Of a stretch of DNA of 39,355 bases, positions 23,081 through 28,583 are shown piece after piece (the stretch's first letter is position 1; each line of letters starts with the position of its first letter). Origin of the DNA: an uncultured Clostridia bacterium (lineage in GTDB: Bacteria; Bacillota; Clostridia; Oscillospirales; Acutalibacteraceae); NCBI GenBank assembly GCA_947630285.1, contig CANRHD010000019.1, positions 1 through 39,355 on the forward strand, in the 5' to 3' direction. Under the pieces are notes generated by a model. That model was not told the origin of the DNA and made no database searches. It was given only the letters and a program-made list of their open reading frames with translations. The translations under genes were made by a program, and so were the position numbers.

Positions 23081-23737
23081 ATGATTAAAATATCGCCGTC
23101 CATACTTTCAAGCGACTACGGAAATCTCGAAAAAGAACTGAAAAGAATGGAAGACTGCGGTGCGGATATGATTCATATTGATGTTATGGACGGGCATTTT
23201 GTACCCAACATAACTCTCGGCGCACCCGTAGTAAAATGTATAAGAAAAGCCTGTCGGCTTCCGTTTGATGTGCATCTTATGATTTCCGACCCGTGCAAAT
23301 ATATACCCGATTTTGCCGAGGCCGGCGCAGATATAATCACATTCCATCTGGAAGCGGACTGTGACGCTCAAAAAACCGTTGAGCTTATCCGCTCATACAA
23401 TATTAAGGCCGGTATCTCCGTAAAGCCCGGTACGGCGATTGAGGAGGTTTTCCCCTATCTTGACAGGCTTTCCATGGTGCTTGTAATGACCGTTGAACCC
23501 GGCTTCGGCGGACAGTCGTTTATGGAGGATATGATGCCAAAGGTACGCACTCTGCGTGCGGAGGCCGAAAGGCGCGGACTTGATATTGACATTGAGGTTG
23601 ACGGAGGTATAAACTGCGATACTATAGCCAAAGCCTCCGAGGCCGGCGCAAATGTTTTTGTCTCCGGCAACGCCGTTTTTTCAAGCGCCGACCCCAAAAA
23701 GACCATTGAACAGTTCAGGGCAAAAGCTTTGGGGTAA
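23081..23737 (+). CDS. rpe: Ribulose-phosphate 3-epimerase
   Basis: 218 residues. Interconverts D-ribulose 5-phosphate and D-xylulose 5-phosphate in the pentose phosphate pathway. Seen: TIM-barrel landmarks ISPSILSSDYGNLE, MIHIDVMDGHFVPNITLG, PFDVHLMI, TFHLEAD, GISVKPGT, MTVEPGFGGQSF and IEVDGGIN, which contain the metal-binding His/Asp residues and the phosphate loop. AAAGG lies 12 bases upstream. Its 3' end overlaps the convergent mecA-like gene by 23 bases. No other pentose-phosphate gene adjoins. Confidence 0.97.
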   Translation: MIKISPSILSSDYGNLEKELKRMEDCGADMIHIDVMDGHFVPNITLGAPVVKCIRKACRLPFDVHLMISDPCKYIPDFAEAGADIITFHLEADCDAQKTVELIRSYNIKAGISVKPGTAIEEVFPYLDRLSMVLVMTVEPGFGGQSFMEDMMPKVRTLRAEAERRGLDIDIEVDGGINCDTIAKASEAGANVFVSGNAVFSSADPKKTIEQFRAKALG

Positions 23738-24269
23738 CATTTTCGCAAACAAGCGAATAATGTTCCCTTATCTGGGCGCACAGGGCTTCGTCGGTTTCTA
23801 CGCCGTCGCCGTATTCAAGGCAAAGCGCCTTTAGATTATTTTTATCTAAACCGCAATTTTCTATTTGGAGCGCAAATTTTTTGCCGTCCGACATAAGCCT
23901 CAAAACCGTTCTGCGGCTTAATTTTGAGATAATTTCGCAGAGCCTTAACAGCGCAGTTGTTTCGCTAAAAATGACTATAGGCGCAGTTTCGCCGTCCGCC
24001 CTGCCCTTTAATTTGTAAATTTTCTTCTTTATAAGCGTAATCAGGACAAGCGCCGAGCCGTCCCTGTGTTCGATTATATTAATATTCAGTTTGGGCTTTG
24101 GCTCGGAAGCGCCGATATTGAGCCTTGAAGAACAGATGAGGTCGGAAAGCATTTCCTTTGTGTTTTCGTCGCTTAAATCTATTTTGTCAAGGTCGAGGCT
24201 GTAGCTCTTAATATCCTGCTTTGAAAGCTCCGCCAAAAATTGTTCGTCGGTATTTTTATGTATCTTCAT
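23715..24269 (-). CDS. mecA: MecA-like adaptor protein
   Basis: 184 residues. MecA proteins bind substrates and present them to the ClpC ATPase for ClpCP degradation. Seen: an N-terminal MKIHKNTDEQFLAELSKQDI with the beta-strand pattern and ENTKEMLSDLICSSRLNIG segment typical of MecA, then a C-terminal half with VIFSETTALLRLCEIISKL and SDGKKFALQIENCG. Somewhat shorter than the B. subtilis protein (about 218 residues), mainly in the linker. Located tail-to-tail with rpe, overlapping it by 23 bases, with divergent start from the RnfD-like gene. Assignment rests on the N-terminal pattern and overall layout; confidence moderate-high. Confidence 0.8.
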   Translation of the reverse strand: MKIHKNTDEQFLAELSKQDIKSYSLDLDKIDLSDENTKEMLSDLICSSRLNIGASEPKPKLNINIIEHRDGSALVLITLIKKKIYKLKGRADGETAPIVIFSETTALLRLCEIISKLSRRTVLRLMSDGKKFALQIENCGLDKNNLKALCLEYGDGVETDEALCAQIREHYSLVCENVTPKLLP

Positions 24270-24360: not shown

Positions 24361-25719
24361 ATGCCTGAAAACGCAGTTAAGCCTACAGACGCAATTAGAA
24401 AAACAAGAAAATATATGCTCGATATGCTGTTGCTTTTATGTGCGCCTGCGGTAATGGCGTGGTACTATTACGGCTCCCGTGCGCTAAAGCTTATATGCGT
24501 CTGCGTAATAACGGCGATACTCACGCAAATCACGGTTTCCGCAATAGTAAAGGCAAGGTCGTACATCTCGGATTTATCGGCGGTGTTTATAGCGGCAAGC
24601 ATAGCTCTATGTATGCCTGCGTATGCGGACTGGTGGCTTCCCTGCCTTGCCGTAATATTCGCAGTAACCGTTGCGGTAATTCCTTTCGGCGGACCGGAAA
24701 ATCTTTTGTTTTCACCTGCGGCGGCAGGTCTTGCGTTTATAACAATATGCTTTCCCGATAAAGTTTTCGCCTATCCCGTTATCCCCTCTGCGCCCGAAAA
24801 TCTTCCCCTGCTTTCAAGCGTCGGATTTATTAAGGGCGAGTCCATATCCTATATGCTGTCACAGGGCAACTCCATAGGCGTAAACATCATAAATTACATA
24901 GATATTCTTGTGGGCAATGTTCCCGGTCCTATGGGCGCAACCTGTGCCATAGCCATGCTCGGCGGCCTTGTTTATTTGATTTTCAGACGCCCTAAGGGAG
25001 CGGTCATAAGCCTTTCCTACCTGCTCACCTGCGCCGCCTTTGCGGCAGTTTTTCCGAGGATCGGCGGCGGCAGGCTCGTCTCCGTAATAATGGAGCTTTG
25101 CGGCGGCCTTACCCTGATATCGGCGCTTATATTTATTTCCGACGAAACGGTAGCCCCCAAAAGATTTATTTCAAGAGTTTGTTACGGTGTTGCGGCAGGT
25201 CTTATAGCCATGCTTTTAAGACTTTACAGCCCTTTGGAGGAGAGCAGCGTTTTTGCGGTGCTGCTTGCAAACGGCATATCGCCCGTTTTCGATTCAAAAA
25301 TCCCCGTATTCGGGCTTGAAAAAAAGCATATGCTTGATAAAATAGAACTGGCAAAGGAAGAACAGCTCAAGCTCAAAAAGGAGCTTGAGGATATAGAAAA
25401 AGCCAAGAAAGAGCAGGAGGAAATGGCGCAAATAAACGCCGCCCTTCAGCCCGAGCGTTCGAAATTTGTCCGCAGGATTTCAAAAAATATAAACAGAAAA
25501 ACTCAGCTTGAAACTAAGGATATTCCGGAGGCGGCCGAGGACACGACGGAAGAAGCCCCCGAAAGCGGATACGGCGATGCCGTCCCGGTAAACCCCGATA
25601 CCGACCCGGACGACTCGGACGATATTCCCACCTTGCAGTACATAGGGGAGCTTGCCGACAAATACGAGCTCGGTTCTTTGGACGAACCCGACAGGGACGG
25701 AGGTGCCTGCGATGAGTGA
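24361..25719 (+). CDS. RnfD/NqrB-like membrane protein with charged C-terminal tail
   Basis: 452 residues. First gene of a three-gene Rnf-like operon. Seen: eight to ten membrane helices (residues about 20-325) with RnfD/NqrB-like features (VIPFGGPENLLFSPAAAGLAF; the GPMGATCAIAMLGGLVYLIF stretch aligns with the G-x-IGETS-x-LA-x-L-x-GG segment of RnfD). In RnfD an FMN is bound to a threonine in an SGATPL-like motif; the corresponding region here (SSVGFIKGESISYML) lacks a clear copy. After the last helix comes a coiled-coil-like stretch (about 330-385) and an acidic tail to 452, not part of typical RnfD (about 310-350 residues). Ribosome binding site AGAGGTG is 13 bases upstream. In classical Rnf this subunit carries electrons and couples to ion pumping; that role is doubtful here. 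Confidence 0.75.
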   Translation: MPENAVKPTDAIRKTRKYMLDMLLLLCAPAVMAWYYYGSRALKLICVCVITAILTQITVSAIVKARSYISDLSAVFIAASIALCMPAYADWWLPCLAVIFAVTVAVIPFGGPENLLFSPAAAGLAFITICFPDKVFAYPVIPSAPENLPLLSSVGFIKGESISYMLSQGNSIGVNIINYIDILVGNVPGPMGATCAIAMLGGLVYLIFRRPKGAVISLSYLLTCAAFAAVFPRIGGGRLVSVIMELCGGLTLISALIFISDETVAPKRFISRVCYGVAAGLIAMLLRLYSPLEESSVFAVLLANGISPVFDSKIPVFGLEKKHMLDKIELAKEEQLKLKKELEDIEKAKKEQEEMAQINAALQPERSKFVRRISKNINRKTQLETKDIPEAAEDTTEEAPESGYGDAVPVNPDTDPDDSDDIPTLQYIGELADKYELGSLDEPDRDGGACDE

Positions 25720-26731
25720 TAAAAAAATCGGCGCTGTTGCAAAAAGTGCGGTAATAAAAAACCCCGTTTTGTTTGAGGCCATAGGCATAGCGCCCGTTGT
25801 CGCCATGGCTACGAGCCTTAAAACCGCTATAATGCTGACCGCAATTACGCTTATACAGATGACCGTTATAGAGCTTTTTGCGTGCAAATTTCTGAAAATG
25901 CTGAAAAGCCGTTTCCGTGTTTTGGTTTATGCGGTTCTGGGCGTGCTTATAAATATACCGTTGTTTTCGGTATTTTCCTATTTCACCCCGAACGAGGCGG
26001 CAAATGTCAGTATCTTTCTGCCGATTATAGCGGTAAATTCCCTTATCGCCCTGCACTGCGAAAGGTTTGCGGTGCGTCACAGCATAAAGGAAACCTTTGT
26101 AGACTCCCTTGCCTCCGGTATGGGCTACGGGCTTATAGTATTGCTTACCGGCACCGTAAGAGAAATTTTCGGCTCCGGCACAATATACGGAATAGACCTG
26201 GGCTTTAAGCTTAAATTTTCGGGGCTGTTGCTTCCGTTCGGCGGCTTTCTTGCGCTGGGTTATATTTCGGCGGTTTTTAAGCGCATAATAAAAAGGCTGT
26301 ATCCCGGCGAAAAGCCCGAGGAAGCGTTTAATCTTTCGGAGATTTCACAGTCGCATTTTGACAACATTAAAAATCTGTTCAACGAGGACTTTAACCCCTT
26401 TGACGAGGAAGCGGAGGCCGAAACGGAAACCTTAAATCCCTTTGCCGATATAGCTCCCGTCCCCGAAAAGCGGAAGAAAAGCAAAAAAGCTCTGCCTAAT
26501 TTAAAGCACGGCAAAAGCAAACGGGCGGAGCAAAAAGAAAGCAAGTATGAGATTATAATTGAAAACGGGGAGAATTTTTCCGCACCTGCGGAGGAAAGAC
26601 GGGATTTGCCGTCCGAAACGGGCGAAAATATAATTTCCGACAGCAAAAAATACGAATCCGAATTTGACGACCTGCTGTCCGAGCTTGAGGTTCACAAAAA
26701 GAAAAAGGAAAAGGACGGTGACGTAGAATGA
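25712..26731 (+). CDS. RnfE/NqrD-like membrane protein, cysteine-lacking, with charged tail
   Basis: 339 residues; RnfE is normally about 200-230. Seen: six membrane helices (residues about 15-190) with the family start KNPVLFEAIGIAP and the second half-motif AVNSLIALHCERFAVRHS, then GMGYGLIVLLTGTVREIFGSGT. In Rnf/Nqr these two positions are Cys (GLCP and NC) and ligate an intramembrane [2Fe-2S] cluster; here they are Ala27 and Ser110. Residues about 210-339 form a charged, Lys/Glu-rich hydrophilic tail. Start at 25712 is preferred over an earlier in-frame ATG because GGAGGTG lies nine bases upstream and the gene then overlaps the RnfD-like gene by eight bases. Tight overlaps on both sides indicate a single unit. 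Confidence 0.8.
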   Translation: MSDKKIGAVAKSAVIKNPVLFEAIGIAPVVAMATSLKTAIMLTAITLIQMTVIELFACKFLKMLKSRFRVLVYAVLGVLINIPLFSVFSYFTPNEAANVSIFLPIIAVNSLIALHCERFAVRHSIKETFVDSLASGMGYGLIVLLTGTVREIFGSGTIYGIDLGFKLKFSGLLLPFGGFLALGYISAVFKRIIKRLYPGEKPEEAFNLSEISQSHFDNIKNLFNEDFNPFDEEAEAETETLNPFADIAPVPEKRKKSKKALPNLKHGKSKRAEQKESKYEIIIENGENFSAPAEERRDLPSETGENIISDSKKYESEFDDLLSELEVHKKKKEKDGDVE

Positions 26732-27321
26732 GCATAATCACGGATCTGATAACTGCCGCCCTTTACGCTATGCTGTTCCAAAATTTTATTTTTACAGGCG
26801 GATACGGCGCCTCGGAGGCCGTGCGAATGTCCGCAAAGCCAAAACAGCTTTACCCCATGACCATACTTATTACCGTTTTTTCAACGGTCGTATCGCTTAT
26901 CTGCACGCTTTTGGAGCGTATTAACTATGTTCACTCGCTGGGCACCGTTGGCCATTCGCTGATTTTTATTGCGGTGCTGTCGGTTTTTTACCTCTTTGTT
27001 TTGTTTTTCGTAGTCAGCGTACTGCACGCAAAGAAAAGAACCGTAAGGCGTGTCGGCATAGCCGCATTTAACACGCTTGTGCTCGCAGTTCCGTTTATAA
27101 ATTACAGAGCCGCATTTTCCCCTGTCGAGGCAATAGGCTCGGGCTTGGGTTCGGGTCTTGCGTTTGCGCTTGCCGTATCGCTTATAAACCTGGGGCTTCG
27201 CAGGCTCGACAAATGCCCCGATATTCCCGAGGCGTTCAAGGGTACGCCGGCTATCTTTATCTATGTTGCGGTACTCTCGCTTGCGTTTACGGGCATTTCG
27301 GGCAGAGGTCTGACGCTTTAA
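26728..27321 (+). CDS. RnfA/NqrE-like membrane protein, cysteine-lacking
   Basis: 197 residues, normal RnfA length, six membrane helices. Starts with the ATGA overlap of the RnfE-like stop. Seen: the N-terminal helix NFIFTGGYGASEAVRMS aligns with NFVL-x-x-x-LG-x-CP-x-LGVS of RnfA; the second half-motif AAFNTLVLAVPF aligns with T-x-NCAVLG. Both cluster cysteines are absent (Ser29 and Thr116). Homology to RnfA/E is inferred from helix layout, these anchored motifs and operon order D-E-A; without cysteines the classical transmembrane electron path through the [2Fe-2S] cluster cannot form. A hairpin straddles the stop codon. Confidence 0.75.
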   Translation: MSIITDLITAALYAMLFQNFIFTGGYGASEAVRMSAKPKQLYPMTILITVFSTVVSLICTLLERINYVHSLGTVGHSLIFIAVLSVFYLFVLFFVVSVLHAKKRTVRRVGIAAFNTLVLAVPFINYRAAFSPVEAIGSGLGSGLAFALAVSLINLGLRRLDKCPDIPEAFKGTPAIFIYVAVLSLAFTGISGRGLTL

Positions 27322-27346: not shown

Positions 27347-27404
27347 CCCTTTAAAATACTTTGCCGCACGGATTTTCAGAGTGTATAATAAAGGATCAAC
27401 TGTT

Positions 27405-28583
27405 ATGTTTTTTAATTCAAAACCCCACAAGCCGAGAAAAAGAAGCTATTATCCGTTTTCTAAAAATTACCCGGGAAAACGGGGCAACTCCTATGACATC
27501 GGCGAAAGCAGAACGAGAAGGGAAAGAGACGAGCGCAACAATATAATTTTTTATGTTTCGCTTATATTGATATTCATAGCCTCTTTCATAATTTTCTCCG
27601 TTGCAATAAAGCTGTCAAAAAGGCCCGTAAGCGGCAACGCCGAAATTAACGCCGCCGCTTTTGACGGGGCGTATAATGCGGTGCAGATTTCCGAGGACGC
27701 CCTTGAGGGCGGAATTGCCTACGACCTTTTTAAAACAGAGCTTGCAGGCTCGAACGCCAACGCCGTCGCCATAGATTTTAAAACGGCGCAGGGCAATCTG
27801 AATTTCCCCTGTAAAAACGAAAACGCCGTAAAAATCGGCGCCGTTGACGATATGCCCTCCCGTTCTGTGGAAATTATCAACGATTTAAAAAAGCATAATT
27901 ACAAAATAATCGCAAGGATTTACTGCTTTGAGGACAGACGGGCCGCCGCACTCATAAGCGGCGCAGGGGTTCGTGAAAAGGATTCGGGCACCGTATGGCT
28001 TGACAACAGCGCCCAAAACGACGGCAACCCCTGGCTCAATCCGTATTCGCCTGCGGCGGTAAACTATATTTTGGATATAATAAAAGAGAGCATCGACTGC
28101 GGTGCGGATATGATTTTGCTAAACTCCGTATGCTTCCCCTCCGGCCCGAAAATCTCAAGCGCAGTCTTTACTGCGGACGAAAACGCCAAGCCCGGTAACG
28201 AGGTATTGCTTGACTTCATAAAGAGGGCGGCAAACGCCTGCGGAGATATACCCCTGGCGGTGCATATGCCCTCGGACAAAGCTCTAAACGGCAGTAAGGC
28301 GCTGTACGGCGGCACAATAATAAACAGCGCCGCAGACTACAACGCCATTGACTTTACCTCTGCCTGCGTGACTGCGGATTTTGAATTTAACGGCACAGTT
28401 TACACAAAGGATAATTTCAGCGAAAACTCGCTGATACAGGCCGCCGTCCCTGCCCTGACGGATAAGGGCTCGAACGCCTATCCCGATAAGGAAATAATCC
28501 CCATAATAGACGATGAAATTTATGTTTCGGCTCTTGAAAATCTCGGGATTTATAATTATATAATAATCAAGCAGGCAAAATAA
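27405..28583 (+). CDS. DUF4015-type putative glycoside hydrolase, membrane-anchored
   Basis: 392 residues. Seen: a very basic N-terminus (about 40 residues), one membrane helix (about 48-70, IIFYVSLILIFIASFIIF), then a TIM-barrel-like extracytoplasmic domain with AVAIDFKTAQGNLNF, EIINDLKKHNYKIIARIYCFEDRRAA, WLNPYSPAAVNYILDIIKES and CGADMILLNSVCFPSG. These match the pattern of the DUF4015 putative glycosyl hydrolase family (related to YpjM-like proteins). Substrate unknown; expected to act on a cell-wall or surface polysaccharide. Start at ATG 27405, with AAGGA nine bases upstream, rather than an in-frame GTG eight codons earlier. It lies 83 bases after the RnfA-like gene and may share its operon. 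Confidence 0.7.
   Translation: MFFNSKPHKPRKRSYYPFSKNYPGKRGNSYDIGESRTRRERDERNNIIFYVSLILIFIASFIIFSVAIKLSKRPVSGNAEINAAAFDGAYNAVQISEDALEGGIAYDLFKTELAGSNANAVAIDFKTAQGNLNFPCKNENAVKIGAVDDMPSRSVEIINDLKKHNYKIIARIYCFEDRRAAALISGAGVREKDSGTVWLDNSAQNDGNPWLNPYSPAAVNYILDIIKESIDCGADMILLNSVCFPSGPKISSAVFTADENAKPGNEVLLDFIKRAANACGDIPLAVHMPSDKALNGSKALYGGTIINSAADYNAIDFTSACVTADFEFNGTVYTKDNFSENSLIQAAVPALTDKGSNAYPDKEIIPIIDDEIYVSALENLGIYNYIIIKQAK

Follow-up and report, generated by a model that had tools for sequence, protein, structure and literature searches.

Three overlapping genes for an Rnf-like membrane core

We analysed a stretch of 39,355 nt from an uncultured Clostridia bacterium of the family Acutalibacteraceae (order Oscillospirales; contig CANRHD010000019.1), in the following called the window. 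It carries three genes whose products resemble RnfD, RnfE and RnfA (hereafter D, E and A), membrane subunits of the redox pump Rnf:

24361-25719, + strand: RnfD/NqrB-like membrane protein of 452 amino acids (aa) (PF03116, E 2.9e-55; phmmer to Acetobacterium woodii RnfD, 9eri_D, E 5.4e-24)
25712-26731, + strand: RnfE/NqrD-like membrane protein of 339 aa with a long C-terminal tail (PF02508, E 3.1e-27)
26728-27321, + strand: RnfA/NqrE-like membrane protein of 197 aa (PF02508, E 3.5e-18)

The E gene shares 8 bases with D and 4 with A. Gene calls are mechanical open reading frames (ORFs) from the first start codon, and N-termini may be too long. For E, listed from a TTG at 25652, the ATG at 25712 is taken as the start, matching the residue numbers of a first-pass annotation made from the letters alone. 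That annotation had recognised the three overlapping genes as D-, E- and A-like, which is borne out. All three proteins score well over the Pfam cut-offs (D in PF03116, E and A in PF02508), and their nearest solved chains by sequence are the matching Rnf/Nqr subunits. Single-chain AlphaFold models were made for E and A. In Foldseek the E model (predicted local distance difference test, pLDDT, 75, with most of the tail poorly predicted) matches the RnfE/NqrD chains 8a1y_D and 9eri_E with template modelling (TM) scores of 0.84 and 0.82 on the target. The A model (pLDDT 87) matches the RnfA chains 7zc6_A (0.75) and 9eri_A (0.73). These results rule out chance similarity to Rnf, and the homologous D, E and A membrane subunits of an Rnf complex are all present. 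NCBIfam scores stay below the curated cut-offs: 126.8 bits for D (rnfD, cut-off 207.05), 66.7 for E (rnfE, 213.4) and 43.1 for A (rnfA, 229.3). The membrane part of D extends to residue ~312 and is followed by a charged C-terminal extension, probably cytoplasmic by analogy with RnfD.

No rnfB, rnfC or rnfG is found beside the trio among the window ORFs in the Pfam scan. The same genome holds a full canonical rnfCDGEAB operon in the order C, D, G, E, A, B on contig C20 and an ApbE gene close by. B, C and G are absent beside the trio yet present in the window's cell, so that their reported lack holds for the locus and not for the genome.

The intramembrane [2Fe-2S] ligands are lost

In Rnf of A. 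woodii the [2Fe-2S] cluster between A and E is held by Cys25 and Cys108 of RnfE and Cys25 and Cys113 of RnfA (PMC11889175, in the sections drawn on here). We compared these positions with related loci, which fall into two main grades: C-D-E-A, which lacks B and G, and D-E-A, which lacks C besides. After removal of duplicates, counts refer to 66 D-E-A, 30 C-D-E-A and 23 canonical loci. Eleven duplicate loci were dropped (L093, L095, L099, L101, L104, L109, L112, L127, L137, L140, L151), and 12 loci truncated at contig ends or holding fewer genes (D, C-D, D-E) enter neither of the two groups. The 66 and 30 loci stem from one family-wide sample and one genome scan and are related by descent, not independent events. 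In the window the four ligand positions read:

25790-25792, + strand: E Ala27, position of ligand RnfE Cys25 (Cys in 45/66 D-E-A, 20/30 C-D-E-A, 23/23 canonical)
26039-26041, + strand: E Ser110, position of ligand RnfE Cys108 (Cys in 0/66 D-E-A, where Ser stands in 46, 0/30 C-D-E-A, 23/23 canonical)
26812-26817, + strand: A Ser29, position of ligand RnfA Cys25, followed by a new acidic Glu30 (Cys in 0/66 D-E-A, 0/30 C-D-E-A, 23/23 canonical)
27070-27075, + strand: A Asn115 (A. woodii Asn112) and Thr116, position of ligand RnfA Cys113 (D-E-A: Asn 66/66; Thr 59/66, Ser 7/66)

At the last position cysteine occurs in 0/66 D-E-A, 2/30 C-D-E-A and 23/23 canonical loci. Over both grades the four positions, in this order, hold cysteine in 65, 0, 0 and 2 of 96 loci, compared to 23 of 23 canonical loci at each. 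The window trio has none of the four, the canonical copy in its own genome all four. The alignment to the A. woodii ligands thus agrees with the four substitutions named by the first-pass annotation. Judged from these residues, a [2Fe-2S] cluster on the four cysteines is impossible in any of the 96 loci. The window is an extreme case, since one of the four cysteines persists in 45 of the 66 D-E-A relatives.

Conserved cysteines elsewhere in these proteins, for example E Cys58 or Cys116, had been pointed out beforehand as possible cluster ligands that would speak against the loss, and the objection holds in part. Two such residues do exist in D-E-A loci, E Cys116 (64/66) and A Cys59 (60/66). 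A standard cluster rebuilt from other cysteines is nevertheless rejected: there is no conserved set of four cysteines in E and A, only these two single ones. Two cysteines cannot make the old cluster; they may instead belong to a new disulfide or metal site. The idea of a new site for a metal or Fe-S cluster, composed of both and of E Cys25 where present, draws on their strong conservation and is still highly improbable. Cys59 lies towards the end of helix H38-63, the second long one in the A model, and Cys116 six residues past Ser110. Moreover, neither cysteine is in the majority in C-D-E-A loci, and both are absent from L183, L184, L188 and L190.

Two loci from the window's order, L196 and L197, have full C-D-G-E-A-B sets with some A/E ligand cysteines missing: A Cys25 and Cys113 in L196, E Cys108 and A Cys25 in L197.

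A conserved branch of Rnf homologues next to rpe

A search with the D-like protein gave a match in 81 of 100 genomes sampled from the window's family, canonical Rnf included. From the better and a few weaker matches 40 stretches were taken, 3 of them canonical (L073, L074, L076) and 37 related loci. The layout recurs: rpe, a mecA-like gene on the opposite strand, an optional RnfC-like gene, D, E, A and often a DUF4015 gene. The neighbours in the window are:

23715-24269, − strand: mecA-like gene (PF05389, E 1.7e-6)
27361-27389: promoter-like site TTGCCG-17-TATAAT, just upstream of the DUF4015 gene
27381-28583, downstream of the trio: DUF4015 protein with an N-terminal hydrophobic segment, putative glycosidase

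A genome scan with one peptide pattern yielded 121 loci, of which the best 80 were kept. By title they belong to metagenome-assembled or uncultured bacteria, mostly Clostridia or Oscillospiraceae and many from gut or rumen. They comprise 62 D-E-A loci, 13 C-D-E-A loci and 5 with fewer genes (3 D-E, 1 D, 1 C-D-E), which we put down to contig ends from the lengths of the stretches. Adjoining genes are rpe in 70, mecA-like in 55 and DUF4015 in 47 of the 80, some of the DUF4015 matches being weak. RnfB or RnfG is found in none of the 80 loci when searched with profiles built from four loci. The trio without B, C and G therefore recurs in other genomes, as the first-pass annotation had proposed to look for.

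Among 20 stretches sampled from the order, 12 are (C)DEA loci (L178-L188, L190), all with rpe adjoining; 4 belong to the window's family and 8 to other families. Ten of the 12 score 270-305 bits with the D profile, L190 scores 211 and L188 239, while canonical RnfD reaches up to 249. With the same profile, in a sample of 291 genomes of the class, no match outside the order exceeds 217 bits, which due to this overlap in scores does not amount to absence there.

In the D, E and A trees the branch stands on one side and canonical Rnf on the other, with Shimodaira-Hasegawa-like approximate likelihood ratio (SH-aLRT) supports of 99.9, 97 and 89, obtained by a quick method and with long branches. 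Taken together, the trio is a member of a separate, many-membered branch of Rnf at one conserved place after rpe. In the open-licence full texts of PubMed Central (PMC), subscription papers not being covered, we find neither a C-D-E-A nor a D-E-A branch described; the nearest published accounts are of partial NQR/RNF-like systems with another make-up and of a proposed origin of NQR from an rnf operon (see below). The suggestion of an undescribed system holds in this respect, with the difference that it concerns a conserved branch with many members and not a single trio.

Compared to the nearest relative found (L078), D has a nonsynonymous divergence (dN) of 0.24 and a synonymous divergence (dS) of 1.54; dN is 0.098 for A and 0.134 for the membrane part of E, with dS saturated. 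Since dN is much lower than dS, purifying selection acts on the genes. A pseudogene or decaying copy is ruled out by these ratios and the open frames.

DUF4015 was considered as a further part of the system. The nearest solved chain is the uncharacterized 4s1a_A (E 3.2e-9). The gene follows in 47 of the 80 scanned loci, in several of them weakly, and the promoter-like site in front of the window copy indicates that it may lie outside the D-E-A operon, although the 5 such sites in the region are no more than chance (mean of 4.1 in shuffles). We do not count it as part of the system.

Stepwise loss of the redox subunits

The RnfC-like protein of C-D-E-A loci has both CxxCxxCxxxC ([4Fe-4S]) motifs in 30/30 cases. 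The GGxGFP stretch of the NuoF-like site for flavin mononucleotide (FMN) and NADH, present in 23/23 canonical loci, is found in 0/30; mostly an E-x-D-G stretch takes its place. By analogy with the canonical site, this loss would abolish NADH binding. The first-pass annotation had proposed that the membrane core was kept while its redox wiring was lost. This view is supported, but since related loci keep an RnfC-like protein with both cluster motifs and without GGxGFP, the loss proceeded stepwise. In the D tree, the presence of C requires at least 5 changes. A few loci hold D alone or C-D (L066, L070, L071, L072), L071 being close to the end of its contig. No PF02508 protein is found in one of the four genomes (G008, 95% complete), and a canonical-type pair elsewhere is all that the other three have.

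B, C and G subunits encoded at another locus and co-purifying with the trio had likewise been named as a finding that would speak against the loss. Among 38 genomes with the locus, 34 show an RnfG match, 22 of them above the curated cut-off, and RnfB is over cut-off in 33 of the 38, in G077 only via summed neighbouring stretches. However, no RnfG match is found in 4 of the 38 (G077, G008, G090, G051; 93-98% complete). In three of these the pair at the locus is the sole PF02508 pair, and the fourth has none. As these genomes keep the locus, the system can exist without Rnf. This bears on the idea that D, E and A swap into the canonical Rnf of the same cell and borrow its B, C and G. The frequent RnfG matches and the full operon in the window's own genome would allow for such a hybrid, but the electron path would be cut where the A/E cluster ligands are gone, and the locus is kept where RnfG is missing. 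We regard it as very unlikely.

Three loci were noted besides. In L173 (G044:C4) the canonical rnfB gives only a partial match, interrupted by a stop, which may mean that the gene is broken or misassembled. L191 and L195, from the window's order, have apbE-, RnfC-, RnfD- and RnfG-like genes in a row and no E, A or B within the 14-kb stretch.

Flavin and Na+ residues of the D-like protein

The structure of Clostridium tetanomorphum RnfD names Asn90, Asn124, Glu185, Asp248 and Ser284 (PMC9588780, in the sections drawn on here). Asn90 and Glu185 are present in 23/23 canonical loci and in 0/66 D-E-A and 0/30 C-D-E-A loci. Ser284 is found in 23/23, 1/66 and 0/30, respectively. Asn124 (flavin/Na+) is likewise invariant in the 23 canonical loci; it is kept in 23/30 C-D-E-A loci and in 1/66 D-E-A loci. 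Two further positions of the window are:

24841-24843, + strand: D Ser161, column of the FMN-carrying RnfD Thr (D-E-A: Ser 59/66, Thr 4/66)
25141-25143, + strand: D Asp261, C. tetanomorphum RnfD Asp248, a riboflavin/Na+ residue in the same source (Asp in 36/66 D-E-A, 26/30 C-D-E-A, 23/23 canonical)

At the FMN column C-D-E-A loci have Ser in 24/30 and Thr in 3/30, which gives Ser in 83 and Thr in 7 of 96 over both grades; canonical loci have Thr in 18/23 and Ser in 5/23. The SGATPL flavinylation motif is lacking in the window, as had been noted from its sequence, and Ser161 occupies the place of the FMN threonine. The stretch in front of it does not fit D-x-x-[ST]-G-A-[ST], so the motif is degraded. 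According to the parts of PMC12052999 used here, ApbE can flavinylate serine but prefers threonine. ApbE is present in 9 of 9 genomes tested and FMN_bind proteins in 4 of 8. G008, G077, G090 and G011, all searched as whole genomes, have ApbE without any FMN_bind (PF04205) protein found, which gives at most a hint at some other flavinylation target in them. In the window's genome the single FMN_bind match is the RnfG on contig C20.

These observations bear on a residual electron (flavin) conduit, in which C would have been replaced by another cytoplasmic partner in the window. Such a conduit is consistent with the cluster motifs of the C-like protein, with Asn124 and Asp248 in most C-D-E-A loci, with serine or threonine at the FMN column and with ApbE in genomes that give no FMN_bind match. 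In the window's grade, however, Asn124 is almost gone, Asp248 is kept in about half of the loci, Asn90 and Glu185 are gone and C is absent; the stretch before Ser161 misfits the motif, and RnfG is missing as electron acceptor. Hence we consider this conduit unlikely.

Some proposed ion-route residues of the A/E pair persist in the window's grade

The Na+ model for A. woodii names RnfE Arg67 and Glu115 as a Na+-gating ion pair and also RnfA Asn112 (PMC11889175, same sections). In the window, Asn112 corresponds to A Asn115 (see above) and the ion pair to the following positions:

25916-25918, + strand: E Arg69, A. woodii RnfE Arg67 (Arg in 66/66 D-E-A, 19/30 C-D-E-A, 23/23 canonical)
26057-26062, + strand: E Cys116 (new) and Glu117, A. 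woodii RnfE Glu115 (D-E-A: Cys 64/66, Glu 63/66)

In C-D-E-A loci the Glu115 column has Glu in 0/30 and Asp in 5. D-E-A loci gain charged residues in A: Glu30, adjoining the old ligand position, in 65/66 (Pro in 23/23 canonical) and Arg33 in 62/66 (Gly in 23/23 canonical). As far as the residues tell, part of the proposed ion route survives in the window's grade and the electron route has been dropped, while C-D-E-A keeps the cluster motifs of C and the riboflavin residues of D.

The E tail and possible partners

26273-26728, + strand: E tail of 152 aa, ending in an acidic/hydrophobic patch; basic residues follow the last helix

The tail is probably cytoplasmic, going by the general topology and the basic residues after the last helix. 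Its median length is 164.5 aa in the 66 D-E-A loci (range 19-503) vs 21 aa in the 30 C-D-E-A and 41 aa in the 23 canonical loci. Three loose patterns for the patch match 12, 5 and 32 of the 66 tails compared to shuffled means of 0.1, 0.1 and 2.3; the patterns were chosen after inspection and the tails are related, so these counts are exploratory only.

In 8 of 66 D-E-A loci D and E are separated by more than 700 bases, the place of canonical rnfG. In 7 of the 8 this gap holds a called same-strand gene for a CAP-domain (YkwD-like) protein with a Thr/Pro-rich linker (L042:5418-6191; same place in L103, L105, L106, L108, L113 and L121); no same-strand gene is called in the gap of L123. L118, cut by a contig end, has two CAP-domain genes between D and E. 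A missed RnfG between D and E is hence rejected, as the genes found there (seven and the two of L118) encode CAP-domain proteins. By our own reading, the CAP proteins start lipoprotein-like. In this subclade an unrelated secreted protein at the place of RnfG points to the outward-facing side of the membrane.

The trio could accordingly serve as an envelope scaffold or sensor, without transport, holding an extracytosolic partner on one side and a cytoplasmic partner via the long tails on the other. The long E tail of D-E-A loci, its patch, the CAP gene and the frequent DUF4015 gene downstream are consistent with such a role. On the other hand, the most conserved positions sit in the membrane core, the E tail diverges more than the membrane part does (55% vs 77% identity to L078), and neither the CAP gene nor DUF4015 is general. 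We consider a scaffold rather unlikely but a serious contender. The CAP gene led us to give it more weight, and less to a carrier or channel, a non-redox branch, the hybrid and the new metal site.

A non-redox relative of the Rnf core

Common ancestry with Rnf, synteny, lost ligands and purifying selection are demonstrated at the level of sequence. We infer that no electrons pass through A/E and that the complex is no longer a redox pump. The best explanation in our view, although we give it somewhat less than an even chance, is a non-redox paralogue of the Rnf core whose A/E pair would act as a cation carrier or channel, transport being deduced from the residues. RnfB, RnfG, the A/E ligands and the NADH motif of RnfC are missing from the branch, and RnfC itself is missing from the window's lineage. 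The old cluster site would now be lined by polar residues and a new glutamate (A Ser29-Glu30, A Asn115-Thr116, E Ser110), with E Arg69-Glu117 kept. The A-E pair would move a cation (Na+ or H+), alone or together with a co-substrate, either as an alternating-access carrier or as a channel, and D would be a structural partner. The long E tail may bind or sense a cytoplasmic partner at the former docking place of RnfC. It is possible, and we propose it with caution, that this is the first non-redox branch of Rnf/Nqr, in which the intramembrane [2Fe-2S] site was rebuilt as an ion (or ion/solute) site, with a Ser-Glu at the membrane centre and the former Na+-gating Arg-Glu pair, and a pump turned into an ordinary cation carrier or channel.

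Several observations weigh against a carrier or channel. The first E cysteine (GxCP) survives in 65 of the 96 relatives, and E Cys116 and A Cys59 are strongly conserved in D-E-A loci. The A. woodii Na+/gating residue A Thr110 is lost in D-E-A (0/66; Ala 59/66), as is A Glu88 (0/66), and A Lys32 is kept in 11/66, the latter two columns being matched by eye. Asp248 in 36/66 and serine at the FMN column in 59/66 leave flavin on D possible. D-E-A loci of another family (L183, L184, L188, L190) have D Asn124 in 4/4 and A Glu30 in 0/4, which ties the signature to the window's clade and not to the loss of C as such. Finally, the CAP lipoprotein gene of the subclade suits an envelope complex no less than a plain carrier.

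Comparison with known systems

With Rnf (A. woodii 9eri, C. tetanomorphum 7zc6, Azotobacter vinelandii 8ahx) the trio shares the folds of D, E and A, the D-E-A order, E Arg67 and Glu115 and A Asn112. It differs by lacking B, G and, in the window, also C as well as the A/E [2Fe-2S] ligands; D is without Asn90, Asn124 and Glu185 and has serine in place of the FMN threonine, A gains Glu30 and Arg33, and E has a long tail. NqrB, NqrD and NqrE of Na+-NQR are homologous to D, E and A. According to parts of PMC12174285 and PMC4014512, NqrA is a relative of RnfC that has lost its cofactors, which makes for a parallel loss; the latter source also proposes that NQR originated by duplication of an rnf operon and loss of rnfB. 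In Na+-NQR the NqrD/E cluster and the flavinylated subunits persist and NqrF was acquired, whereas the trio lost the cluster. No NqrC or NqrF is found at the locus among the neighbour proteins scanned; NqrF was not searched genome-wide.

In NQR/RNF-like two-subunit systems an NqrB/RnfD domain is fused to an NAD-binding domain and accompanied by a flavinylated extracytosolic subunit (PMC8238504, PMC11334425). They likewise make partial use of the NqrB/RnfD membrane domain, outside a full complex, with no conserved flavinylation threonine there in the sections of these papers considered. In contrast, the trio keeps the A/E pair and has neither FMN_bind nor NAD-binding parts: the D-like protein is PF03116 only with no PF00175 fusion, and there is no FMN_bind gene beside it.

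For this branch, which many uncultured gut and rumen bacteria carry, the NCBIfam wording 'RnfABCDGE type electron transport complex subunit' could be misleading. The kept trio suggests a second job for the membrane core of the pump. It is disputed, in the part of PMC12174285 referred to, whether Na+ passes via RnfD/NqrB (Vitt 2022, Hau 2023) or via RnfA/E (Kumar 2025). The branch naturally separates these two proposed routes. In the window's grade Arg67, Glu115 and Asn112 of A/E persist, while Asn90, Asn124 and Glu185 are gone from D. C-D-E-A leans the opposite way, with Glu115 in 0/30 and Arg67 in 19/30 but Asn124 in 23/30, Asp248 in 26/30 and the C motifs in 30/30, although Asn90 and Glu185 are also at 0/30. 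Transport by each grade would bear on the dispute about the Na+ route, free of redox chemistry.

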